Shown one piece after another: positions 46,401 to 50,000 of a stretch of 64,000 nt of DNA (positions within the stretch are counted from its first letter, which is position 1; the number at the start of each line of letters is the position of its first letter). Where the stretch lies: NCBI RefSeq assembly GCF_032854445.1, contig NC_088295.1, positions 17,967,385-18,031,384 of the forward strand, given 5' to 3'. The notes beneath the pieces were generated by a model. The model was not told where the DNA came from and did not search any database. It saw only the letters and a list, made by a program, of their open reading frames with translations. The position numbers and the translations under genes are program-made. Source of the stretch: Liolophura sinensis. Lineage: Eukaryota > Mollusca > Polyplacophora > Chitonida > Chitonidae.

Positions 46401-46762
46401 CAAAACTAAGTACGGTAAGTTATATTAACCAAAAATTATGACAAGGGTTGGCCTCAACATAAATGAATCCATAAACACACCCACAGTCGCCCACTTTCAT
46501 ACTACCAAACACGTACAAAATAGGTCTTGAATAGTAAATAATTCTAACTTTGAATATAATTCTCACCTTTATACAACTGAGCAATACAAGAGGCAGAATT
46601 CTGAAAACCTAACCAAAGCTTCTGGGTAGAGAATTCTCTTTCTGCCTGAATTCTGTCCTCCATGTTTGGCTCTCTGTCGAGATCCTCCAGACATTCTTCT
46701 TCAAAACTACTTAACCAATTTTCACCACTCTGATCCACATCCTGAGATTTATCTTCGGCCAT
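40240..46762 (-). CDS. HAPSTR1: HAPSTR1 (C16orf72), HUWE1-associated stress-response protein, 258 aa, four exons
   Basis: Coding exons on the minus strand are 46762-46567, 44929-44858, 43264-42956 and 40439-40240. All junctions are phase 1 and the sum is 777 nt with stop. The product is 258 aa; human is 275 aa. Matches to human include LW..FQNSA..(I/V)AQLYK (residues 49-65), a second copy LSLWVPFQNSA (71-81), the NKD(I/V)..W.KK(K/R)RR..IRRED block (111-129), EPDLQPFR and a basic C-terminus DSPARKRGRLT. In human cells the protein binds the HUWE1 ubiquitin ligase and tunes stress and p53 signalling, mainly in the nucleus; the basic block may serve in import. No enzymatic motif is visible. The gene diverges from USP7 with 270 bp between start codons. 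Confidence 0.94.
41690..42002 (+). repeat. Diverged SINE-like element with a B box and the common SINE tail
   Basis: A good RNA polymerase III B-box match, GGTTCAAACCC, lies near 41701. About 230 bp downstream, CCAGTTTCCTATAGCCAT, then GAATAAGAGAAAAATTCTAC and AGTACAACATTAAACAA, align block by block with the tail of the common SINE. The intervening body does not match that family. It is read as a second SINE with a shared tail, in antisense orientation within HAPSTR1 intron 3. Confidence 0.5.
42138..42182 (+). repeat. Fragment of a second dispersed repeat
   Basis: GGGTTAATGCCACATCAGCA followed by ATATTACAGCTGTA matches a block at 56962-57005 (GCTTAATGCCACATTGGCAATATTTAAGCCATA) and resembles 37893-37930. 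The fragment is short with approximate ends. Confidence 0.5.
42956..43264 (-). CDS. HAPSTR1: HAPSTR1 coding exon 3
   Basis: The exon is 309 nt, with acceptor CCAAACAG and donor GTAAGT. It encodes residues 90-192, including the basic KKKRRLIRRED segment, the RSPPHRNR loop and EPDLQPFRDAL. Confidence 0.93.
44155..44185 (+). repeat. tRNA-like SINE head fragment
   Basis: TAGCCTAATGGTCAGAGCAT resembles a tRNA D-arm and A-box region (TAGCCTAGTGG-TAGAGC type). No B box, acceptor stem or T arm follows, so it is not a tRNA gene. Confidence 0.35.
44255..44820. repeat. 57-58 bp tandem array interrupted by a SINE
   Basis: The unit is about GGAGTCATGTTAACATGGGC, then TGCTATAGCTACAGGACTCC, then CAATATGGCTACCATACT. 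Starts are visible at 44318, 44375, 44433 and 44491, with a diverged copy before them. One more copy resumes at 44766 after a SINE insertion. The array lies within HAPSTR1 intron 2. GTTAAC and GGAGTC/GACTCC sites within the unit give short inverted repeats. Confidence 0.92.
44502..44763 (-). repeat. Full-length SINE inserted in a tandem array, 13-bp target-site duplication
   Basis: The full structure on the minus strand runs from the GGGGCCTCCGTGGCTCAGT head to an AAATAAATAA tail. CTGGAGTCATGTT is present at 44489-44501 and again at 44764-44776, exactly abutting both ends. The duplication is unit sequence of the host array, so the insertion is younger than the array. Because transcription of HAPSTR1 is also on the minus strand, the SINE is in sense orientation to it. 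Confidence 0.93.
44858..44929 (-). CDS. HAPSTR1: HAPSTR1 coding exon 2 (72 nt)
   Basis: This small symmetric exon has phase 1 at both ends. The acceptor is TTTTTTGGCAG and the donor GTAATG. It encodes residues 66-89, with the second LWVPFQNSA motif ending MYK. Its end mirrors the end of exon 1 (TATAAAG then GT). It is too short to appear as an open frame. Skipping it would keep the reading frame. Confidence 0.92.
46567..46762 (-). CDS. HAPSTR1: HAPSTR1 coding exon 1
   Basis: This encodes residues 1-65 plus one base. The acidic N-terminus (ENWLSSFEEECLEDLD) is followed by the first FQNSA motif. The exon ends TATAAAG before a GTGAGA donor. Reading through the donor adds a few codons and a stop, so this 72-codon frame alone is not the full product. 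Confidence 0.93.
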
Positions 46763-47032
46763 TTTATCATCAATCCTCTCCTTTAAATGTTTAGGTGTTT
46801 TTGGACGGGAACGTAGTCAGTTTTTTGGCAGATGTTGTGCTTTTTCTGCCGTCCGTCCTTTCAACGGCCTCCTCGTATTCTTTTTCTATTCCCTGTTTAA
46901 ATCCGGAAGAGAACACCACGCAGGCGCAACAAGAGTAATTCGGAACGGAAATAACCGATTTCTCCTAAAACAACAGATCAAGAAGTTATTTCCTTACTCG
47001 TCTTATTATCTAAAGTTCTTTTAAATGCAGAA
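46763..47032. promoter_or_regulatory. Putative bidirectional promoter of HAPSTR1 and USP7
   Basis: Only 270 bp separate the HAPSTR1 start codon (minus) from the first possible USP7 start (plus), so both transcription start regions must lie here or close by. An ETS-type CCGGAAG lies at 46903-46909, with a second GGAA-rich patch (TTCGGAACGGAAAT) near 46938. Just downstream, a YY1-type CCGCCATCTTG lies at 47129-47139 and a CACGTG E-box at 47268-47273. ETS and YY1 sites are typical of vertebrate bidirectional promoters. The local sequence is richer in CG dinucleotides than its surroundings. There is no clear TATA box. Confidence 0.6.
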
Positions 47033-47060
47033 TGACAGCTAAATTGTCACAATCTGATGG
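47033..47060 (+). CDS. USP7: USP7 alternative first coding exon 1a
   Basis: ATG at 47033 opens MTAKLSQSD, followed by one base and a strong GTAAGT donor at 47061. Phase 1 matches exon 2 at 49429. A short upstream frame starts at 47026 (MQNDS then stop) and could lower initiation here. There is no clear protein similarity because the N-terminus of USP7 is variable. Confidence 0.5.
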
Positions 47061-50000
47061 TAAGTGAAAGGATCACTGTGTAAGATGTTGAACTATTCGG
47101 AACTATCCCATAGTGCATCTAACGCATTCCGCCATCTTGTTTATTTTTGTCGCACCGCGCAGAACGGAGAAAGCTGGAGAACAGTGGTTGTACATATATT
47201 TCATGCTGAGTGTGTCCCCTGTTTTCAGGGGTAAACAGCCGCAGAAATTGGGCGCATCGCGAGTAAGCACGTGAAAGTGACCGGTCTTCATAAGAATCAC
47301 TCGACGCCAAGTCGAACGGTCACTGCCCCAAGTGATTCCACAGAAAGGATGTCACTTGTGAATCATGTAAATTCCAGAAATGAAAATGACGAAAGTCCGC
47401 AAGAAGAGGAGAAGATGGACACGAGGGAGGGTCAGTTGAAAGAGATCAGACTTATGGCAGTTAGGTTTATTGATCTATAAGTGAAAGGTCTCTGTGTTTT
47501 TCAAATTGACACCCGGCGTTGTGCAGTAACCGCTTCTAGTATGCACATGGCTCTGTATTTCAGCTGAATGTAGCTTGTGTGAGTCTGCAGTCATAGTTAT
47601 GATACACATGACAATTTTGAGATTAGTATCACGAAGATGTACCTCATCATGTAAAAACTCTCAAAATGTGGTTGTAAAGAGGTAGTCAAGACAGGAGCGC
47701 TTGTCTTTGTTATTGTCAAGCTTGGGCAGCGCATTGACCCAGGATGGTCAGTGTGGGATTTATGAGTTCATATCCAGCTCATGCTGACCTCCTCTCTTGT
47801 TGTGGGAAGTTTGCCACCTACCTGCAGATGGTTACAGGGTTTCCTCCAGGTCTGCCCAGTTTTCTCCCATTATTATACTGGCTGCTGTTGTTTAAGTGAA
47901 ATATTACGGCCTAAACGCCAATCAGATAAAGTATATTGCAGTTGTGTTTCTACATGACTAAATTGTATTTTAAGCAAAACTTGCAGTGACGTTGGTTCTG
48001 GGCGATCCTTGGCCAAACAAAATTTTACCAAATCTAACGTCAGAGCAATCTCAGACTAATTGTACTTCATCCTCAATCCATTCACCATAAAATGCCTGCA
48101 GGAAGTAAACATACAATCAGCTGTCACAAGTTATTGTTCATATGATTTCATTATAAAGTAGACGTAGTAGTTAGAGTAACTAGATTTCACAAATGTATCC
48201 AGAGATAGGTTTGGTCATCATTTTGTTGGTGTAAAACATTGACAGCAAAAGAAACAGATGAAAATTATCTGATGAATGCAAATTGCTCAAGGGTTTGGAT
48301 ATTATTTCTGTGGCATTATATAACTGCCTCAGTAAAGGTAAACTGACATGGTTGAAATTAATCTTTTAGTTCACAACAGTGTACACAGTAACTTAAATAA
48401 TGAAACATACATTTACCCAAACTTTGCTTGGACCTTCTTTGCTTTGCTTCTAAAAGATCACACTGTGGGGGAGAAATCTAGTATAAAATGTAGGAAGTTA
48501 ATTTCTGACTTTCATTTGACAAAGGATTTCTGTTGTCTTAACATTGGTTGACCTTTTTTTTAATATTAAAATTCTGTATGTTGGTTATATTTTAATGGGC
48601 CTCTGTCTGAGTTTGAGAACATTTGTGTAATGAATTCTTCATAAAATAATACACTTTACTAAAATACTTTTCACTTCGTAACTGGCCGTGCTTTTAGGTG
48701 TATAATCATCCTTCTGCAGTTATTAGATGTTAATTCCTTTTGCTGTGTATTTAGGAGTGTAATTAACCGCCTGTAGTTATTAGATGATAATCCCTTTTGC
48801 TCTGCACAGCATGGGGTAAATGGCTAACCACATAAAAGCTTTATGCAGGTATTTGGTGAATGCAATACCTGTAAAGAGATTATGGTAAACTAGATTAGCT
48901 ATTTAATGAATTTCAGGACTTCTCTTGTAAAAACAAAACAGCTGAATTAAGTCACTTTGTGGATAGATTTATGCTTGAGATACTAATTTTATAAACATTA
49001 AAAGAGGTCAGTTGTAACATATTTCAGCATCTGCCTATGTTGATCTTGATTGTATTTGTAGGTAAAATATGGATTAAACTGCAGCTGGTTTAAATAATTG
49101 CACTTGTGAACATGAAGATTCTATGTGCAACCATAGCATCACTATCTTTTGAATGCAAACAGATTGAAGTTAAAAATTATGAATTGAAGGATAAGTGCAT
49201 TCTGAAGAAATTAAATATTACTTGAATGGTTTGTCTTTTATTTAAGGCGATCTTCCAAGAACCTGCAGATGTTTGTGGGTTTCCCTGGGCTCTGCCCTGT
49301 TTTCTCCCACCATAATGCTGGCTGGCATTGTACGAGTGAAATATTTTTGAGTACGGTGTAGAACACCATTCAAATAAATAAGTAAATTTATTTAAAACAT
49401 CTGTAAGTCTGAGTTCATTCTATTGTAGATGAGACGAATCATGGTGGAGGAGAACTCTCCCCTAACCTGATGAATGGAGACGTCCAGGAAATTGGGGCCA
49501 GTCCTGAGGAGGAGCCGATGGAAGAAGGTAACCAACCCAGCCATGAAATCTTACCCATTGAAACTGAAATCAATACTTGAAAACATTTTGCAATGAGAAT
49601 GTAAATTGAATGTTGTGAGGCCCCCATCATTGCATATCAATATGTGTTTATTTATTGCTCACATTGAGAAAATATCCAGTATAAACTTGTTGACCACCAT
49701 GTGAATTTAAAGCTGTTTTTGGACAGAACTTAGATATGGTGCAGAGGACCACAGTAAGTATGAAAAAGTAAACTTATTGTTGTTTGTTTTTAGAGGAAGC
49801 TTTAACCTTCAAGGTTGTTTATAGCGTGTGAGGTTTAAAAAGTGGAATAATGATAATAGTCTTAACAAACTGTCAATTTATTTTTGTTAACCGCCAATAT
49901 GACTGAATCTTCCTCACCAGATGAAAGCCGAGCAGAAACTACTTTCACATATACTGTTGAAAACATCAGTAAACTGAAAGAGACAACTCTCAGCCCACCA

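Follow-up and report, generated by a model that had tools for sequence, protein, structure and literature searches.

The stretch of DNA analysed here, a window of 64,000 nucleotides (nt) from the chiton Liolophura sinensis (assembly GCF_032854445.1, contig NC_088295.1, positions 17,967,385 to 18,031,384), contains the genes HAPSTR1 (C16orf72) and USP7. The two adjoin on opposite strands, HAPSTR1 on the minus and USP7 on the plus strand, with their 5′ ends facing each other. An initial annotation of this DNA had described them as a divergent head-to-head pair, and gene models of both genes bear this out: the arrangement is confirmed and the genes were correctly identified. Their adjacency in human, also claimed at that stage, is found in print as well: at 16p13.2, USP7 is reported to adjoin C16orf72/HAPSTR1 directly and the two to be co-amplified (PMC11148184). 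Thus, the pair that is adjacent in the chiton window is the same as in human. Tight spacing alone is unremarkable; head-to-head genes spaced by less than 1 kb are reported to make up 11% of human, 18% of worm and 32% of fly genes (PMC3403606). What goes beyond chance is the adjacency of the same pair in human too. HAPSTR1–USP7 is a further case of an already known class, that of deeply conserved head-to-head gene pairs.

HAPSTR1 has four coding exons with AG/GT borders and phase-1 introns, which together encode a protein of 258 residues (Table 1). The ATG lies at 46762 on the minus strand, and exon 1 runs from there to 46567, where a GT donor follows. The Pfam TAPR1-like domain covers residues 21–256 of the protein (5.3e-68). 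In the alignment to human HAPSTR1, with the residue numbering checked, F90, A94, Y101 and G119 are all kept. These residues have been described as required for dimerisation or HUWE1 binding (PMC10921065, 2024). The possibility that this HAPSTR1 is a retrocopy is ruled out by its three introns together with the single match of exon 1 in the whole 609-Mb assembly, the genome-wide search having been made for exon 1 alone. By sequence, no relative of HAPSTR1 was found in the PDB. A separate observation concerns the internal structure of the protein. The tails of exon 1 (LWLGFQNSASCIAQLYK, 46568-46618) and exon 2 (LWVPFQNSAASVTSMYK, 44859-44909) are repeats of each other, exon 2 being 72 nt long with phase 1 at both ends. 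Both repeats stop at the identical intron phase, which points to an exon duplication as the origin of the tandem helix pair in the HUWE1-binding domain.

USP7 exons 2-29 have AG/GT boundaries throughout, and the rest of the C-terminus is present as four matching pieces within 3.1 kb past the window (L008), up to ~67061. Pfam assigns MATH, UCH, USP7_ICP0_bdg and C-terminal domains to the product, and the top PDB matches are chains of ubiquitin carboxyl-terminal hydrolase 7, of 1102 and 1107 residues (9plr, 9k2w). Residues C223, H464, D481 and W165 of PDB chain 9plr_C are all conserved in the alignment, the first three being the catalytic Cys, His and Asp. The first exon is a less straightforward matter. 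As candidates we considered exons that are initiated by an ATG, stay open over a scan of at most 400 nt and end at a donor scoring at least 8. The plus strand carries four donors of this strength from the HAPSTR1 ATG to USP7 exon 2 (49429), and two of them close such an exon in a phase fitting exon 2. The ATGs of these two exons, 1A and 1B, are separated by 317 bp. The donor of 1A is among the strongest: only one of the 31 own donors of both genes reaches its score of 11.1 in a leave-one-out comparison, and donors as good occur in the window at 0.08 per kb and strand. The donor of 1B (9.1) is ordinary, its score being reached by 9 of the 31 own donors (leave-one-out) and at 0.49 per kb. Counting against exon 1A is an out-of-frame ATG at 47025, 7 nt upstream. 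The acidic end of exon 1B presumably resembles the end of human USP7 exon 1.

Because USP7 has two credible first exons, the start codons of the two genes are either 269 bp (with 1A) or 586 bp (with 1B) apart. The distance of 270 bp proposed initially therefore agrees with exon 1A, but does not hold as the sole value; the span 46567-47430 given for the pair at that time includes both candidate exons. With either distance, the transcription starts of HAPSTR1 and USP7 are likely less than 1 kb apart.

Exons 1A and 1B both lie inside a single CpG-rich segment, which extends over the 5′ ends of both genes. The observed-to-expected CpG ratio is 1.09 in 46763-47349, whereas 500-bp windows have a median ratio of 0.32. 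Since both 5′ ends lie in one CpG-rich segment, it is likely that the two genes have one shared promoter, although CpG richness, which fits such a promoter, is a property of composition and distinct from evidence of transcription. The segments were obtained by scanning 204 kb (the window plus 140 kb of flanks), and the 16 best were considered, 6 of which fall in the CpG-poor stretch 7.5–108 kb. CpG richness is not exclusive to gene starts, because segments also occur at 37134–38245, on a copy of a repeat resembling a short interspersed nuclear element (SINE) and over HAPSTR1 exon 3. The last of these, 42587–43169, is the only other best segment within HAPSTR1 or USP7 and is weaker (9.7 vs 21.9). 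In 37134–38245 no gene was found, the one overlapping open reading frame (ORF) having no family in Pfam. On a larger scale, broad CpG-rich domains extend from -16983 to 7539 (24.5 kb), where the domain stops at the start of an ankyrin gene, and from 108025 to 126828 (18.8 kb), both in window coordinates. The region is otherwise CpG-poor, a pattern as in a mosaic methylated genome.

ETS, YY1 and E-box motifs had also been put forward as fitting a bidirectional promoter. We tested 15 patterns against dinucleotide shuffles, and of the three motifs it is the strict YY1 site that exceeds them. The looser YY1 pattern gave P 0.044 and the looser ETS pattern, with two sites, P 0.066, both to be read as values among 15 patterns. 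The same shuffle test gave no support for NRF1, NF-Y, Sp1, CRE, TATA, ZBTB33, initiator, E2F or p53 half-site.

Table 1. Features of the HAPSTR1–USP7 locus (window coordinates; UTR, untranslated region)
Feature	Position	Strand	Basis
HAPSTR1 coding exon 1 (MAEDKSQ...LWLGFQNSASCIAQLYK)	46567..46762	-	Phase 1 with GT donor; homologous to human HAPSTR1
HAPSTR1 exon 2 (DRYQGLSLWVPFQNSAASVTSMYK)	44858..44929	-	AG/GT; tblastn 75% over 20 residues
HAPSTR1 exon 3	42956..43264	-	AG/GT; tblastn 1.2e-20
HAPSTR1 exon 4 including stop codon	40240..40439	-	AG acceptor; tblastn 2.6e-6
Inter-start-codon interval with exon 1A, 269 bp	46763..47031		Gene models
Candidate first exon 1A of USP7 (MTAKLSQSD; phase 1)	47032..47059	+	Donor ATG/GTAAGT, score 11.1
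Candidate first exon 1B of USP7 (phase 1; 27 whole codons with an acidic end)	47349..47430	+	Donor AGG/GTCAGT, score 9.1
Possible 5′-UTR intron (1A as leader joined to exon 47229-47430)	47060..47228	+	Donor 11.1; acceptor before 47229 scoring 8.1
USP7 exons 2-29 (28 exons; MATH, UCH protease, ICP0-binding region, start of USP7_C2)	49429..63342	+	Homology, Pfam, PDB
Continuous CpG-rich segment (36 CpG) spanning the 5′ ends of both genes, putative shared promoter	46806..47532		Maximal-scoring segment, score 21.9
ETS-like CCGGAAG	46903..46909	+	P 0.14 vs shuffles
YY1-like AAGATGGCGG	47129..47138	- (HAPSTR1 strand)	Only strict match in 64 kb; 0/500 shuffles
E-box CACGTG	47268..47273		P 0.09 vs shuffles
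CpG-rich segment (45 CpG), between 3′ ends of ankyrin-SAM gene and HAPSTR1	37134–38245		Score 22.0
CpG-rich segment, over HAPSTR1 coding exon 3	42587–43169		Score 9.7
CpG-rich segment, copy of SINE-like repeat	17927–18165		Score 10.9
CpG-rich segment, within 2–6 kb before first recognised BAIAP2-like exon	69601–70223		Score 12.3
CpG-rich segment, within 2–6 kb before first recognised BAIAP2-like exon	71859–73236		Score 16.7

We take the human genes to be divergent as well, and presumably separated by ~0.1 Mb; in the chiton, 269 or 586 bp lie between the two start codons. A 254-kb human duplication spanning the pair is reported to contain solely USP7, C16orf72 and RP11 transcripts (PMC5082909), and a 326-kb one to affect USP7, PMM2, C16orf72 and CARHSP1 (PMC6779875). 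In chicken, USP7 and C16orf72 stand side by side in an interval listing (PMC11050503). The outer neighbours found in the chiton are others: beyond HAPSTR1 lies an ankyrin–SAM gene, and USP7 is followed by a BAIAP2-like gene. The human and chicken intervals cited list neither of the two. The BAIAP2-like gene, whose first recognised exon is at ~75.5 kb, has an SH3 exon with BAIAP2 as the best PDB match (2.9e-7) and a 25-residue match (2.7e-4) to the BAR domain of human BAIAP2. The scan for flanking genes covered ORFs ranked by codon use, 10 of them compared with Pfam, and three human queries, so that a small gene could escape it. With outer neighbours other than those listed for human, the HAPSTR1–USP7 pair appears to have outlasted a change of its surroundings.

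In human cells, USP7 and HAPSTR1 are enzyme and client, because USP7 binds and stabilises HAPSTR1 (PMC11148184, PMC10921065) and C16orf72 has been nominated as a USP7 substrate; data of others are cited there in which C16orf72 had dropped two hours into USP7 inhibition (PMC9225015). USP7 is further reported to promote HAPSTR1 stability, its overexpression leading to HAPSTR1 accumulation (PMC10921065), and to be the second DepMap correlate of HAPSTR1 (PMC10921065, PMC11148184). HAPSTR1 itself is described as ubiquitously expressed, and its degradation as promoted by TRIP12 (PMC10921065). The initial annotation named only the common field of the two proteins, ubiquitin and stress control; the direct link between them, absent from it, goes beyond what it had claimed.

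Taken with these data, the locus inclines us to the view that HAPSTR1–USP7 is a divergent pair as old as the bilaterians, with one CpG-rich promoter (46806-47532) driving the two genes in opposite directions in the chiton. Transcription of both genes would begin inside this segment, and one opening of chromatin would set the client HAPSTR1 and its stabiliser USP7 together. Splitting the shared promoter would harm two important genes, and the linkage would be kept for this reason together with the joint control. In the vertebrate line the promoters would later have moved apart while the adjacency stayed, as the initial annotation had also proposed, although a comparison of one invertebrate with human gives no direction for the change in promoter distance. 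If the animal counts as a protostome, we infer that the linkage of deubiquitinase and client dates back to the ancestor of the bilaterians. More ambitiously, the pair might be seen as a co-regulated module of bilaterian age, in which the deubiquitinase and the client stabilised by it are expressed from one promoter with their ratio set at the DNA level, and whose promoter was loosened in vertebrates although the genes stayed linked; this we offer only tentatively. The reasons for the linkage could be co-regulation, an indivisible promoter or inertia.

Several points weigh against an old pair held by one promoter. The human HAPSTR1 and USP7 promoters are, as we assume, far apart, hence a shared promoter cannot be what holds the pair together in human. 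As the human adjacency would have survived promoter separation, either something beyond the shared promoter matters or rearrangement has simply not occurred. A survey found co-regulation or pair function to be no general reason for the preservation of bidirectional pairs, which are cited there as conserved only among vertebrates (PMC3403606); according to a later paper, 66 vertebrate-conserved divergent pairs are kept in fly (PMC12672016). USP7 is reported to have a small effect on HAPSTR1 abundance at steady state (PMC10921065). At the chiton locus, neither the E-box nor the strict ETS-like site exceeds chance as judged by the dinucleotide shuffles. Finally, chiton HAPSTR1 has 1 USP7-docking motif vs 2.28 expected from shuffles. 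However, this test has little power, because human HAPSTR1 shows no enrichment either, with 2 motifs vs 2.62 expected, though the human protein binds USP7.

Among the other explanations, which are not mutually exclusive and whose odds need not sum to one, the strongest rival is inertia. Here the shared promoter acts as a mechanical lock, rearrangement is slow and the functional link between the proteins is coincidental. We regard this as possible, though not as what we would expect: the two proteins do bind each other, the pair stayed although its outer neighbours are not those of human, and human would have kept the adjacency after the promoters had separated. Still, bidirectional pairs are common and pair function is ruled out as their general driver by the survey mentioned (PMC3403606), and retained metazoan microsyntenies are reported to number 216 in scallop and 275 in squid (PMC9023564). 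Alternatively, two promoters might merely abut, with HAPSTR1 and USP7 1A/1B having their own core promoters in the CpG-rich segment and being regulated separately. The two candidate first exons of USP7, with their ATGs 317 bp apart, would agree with such an arrangement, and CDT2-INTS7 is described as a pair with a common short intergenic region yet different regulation and expression (PMC2194621). The CpG-rich segment is nevertheless single and continuous, and we consider abutting promoters somewhat doubtful.

Linkage might also be imposed by a regulatory block, with enhancers of one gene lying in or beyond the other, which would explain how adjacency was retained across the ~0.1 Mb presumed for human, where no promoter would be shared. 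Such scenarios have been discussed for microsyntenies (PMC9023564), but a gene as ubiquitously expressed as HAPSTR1 (PMC10921065) needs no distant enhancers, making this explanation unlikely. That the pair was re-formed by chance in this lineage might be entertained inasmuch as a single invertebrate was examined. By our own estimate, however, with ~20,000 genes a neighbour match to human would arise in about 1 of 10,000 trials; the adjacent pairs considered were few, so that re-pairing by chance is highly improbable.

Comparison with known divergent pairs helps to place the one described here. HAPSTR1–USP7 is tight in the chiton and presumably loose in human, whereas PRKN–PACRG is tight in human. 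For the same reason, human-centred catalogues with a limit of less than 1 kb would omit HAPSTR1–USP7, given a human gap of ~0.1 Mb. PRKN–PACRG is otherwise similar, a ubiquitin enzyme being head-to-head with a partner gene and the starts being 204 bp apart (PMC8074078). In human TRIP12–FBXO36, too, a ubiquitin gene lies head-to-head in a CpG island, with a promoter of 555 bp, but the function of FBXO36 is described as unknown, hence no client relation is known (PMC7697007). The catalogued human divergent pairs share with HAPSTR1–USP7 the opposite directions and short distance; the catalogue demands starts less than 1 kb apart, and there is no mention of USP7 in the main text (PMC12672016). Among the literature matches listed, none concerned the HAPSTR1–USP7 pair in invertebrates, and no paper was found joining "USP7 promoter" and "bidirectional promoter". 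Pattern matches for USP7 loci of other animals in viral and prokaryote collections numbered 9 and 25, none of them confirmed. Characterisation of HAPSTR1 began only recently, and how it fits into ubiquitin-based stress control is still being worked out. If the linkage is deep, it would provide evolutionary evidence, independent of cell screens, for USP7 as a core member of the HAPSTR1–HUWE1 pathway. For human genetics it is relevant that HAPSTR1 and USP7 may both be altered by a single copy-number change at 16p13.2, and the pair offers a testable case of genes staying joined after their promoters separated.

The remaining observations concern the surroundings of the pair. The recognised exons of the ankyrin-SAM gene, which we take to be USH1G/ANKS4B-like, are at 7220-7393 and 31005-32300, ~23.6 kb apart, and the gene is convergent with HAPSTR1. 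NUF2 was considered for the gene 5′ of the ankyrin gene and rejected, since human NUF2 found nothing there at E 0.05; two ORFs of this gene have no Pfam family. Nor were Pfam families found in 10 further ORFs of the window, and searches for Rfam matches at the gathering threshold and for transfer RNA gave none. The SINE-like repeat of ~265 bp, presumably akin to a repeat of molluscan genomes, is represented at 44501-44765. BLAST finds 16 matches to it across the window, counting the repeat itself, and among them full copies, 88-93% identical, lie at 17901-18164, 20018-20282 and 54836-55098. Minisatellite arrays are present at 21836-22913 (32-bp unit), 24442-25175 (22), 30309-30599 (22), 10870-11202 (39) and 44259-44502 (58). 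Downstream of the BAIAP2-like gene, three synaptobrevin-like ORFs occur on both strands within ~21 kb (L012:6824-7081, L013:1948-2211 and L014:7445-7648), the second of them just under the Pfam cut-off.

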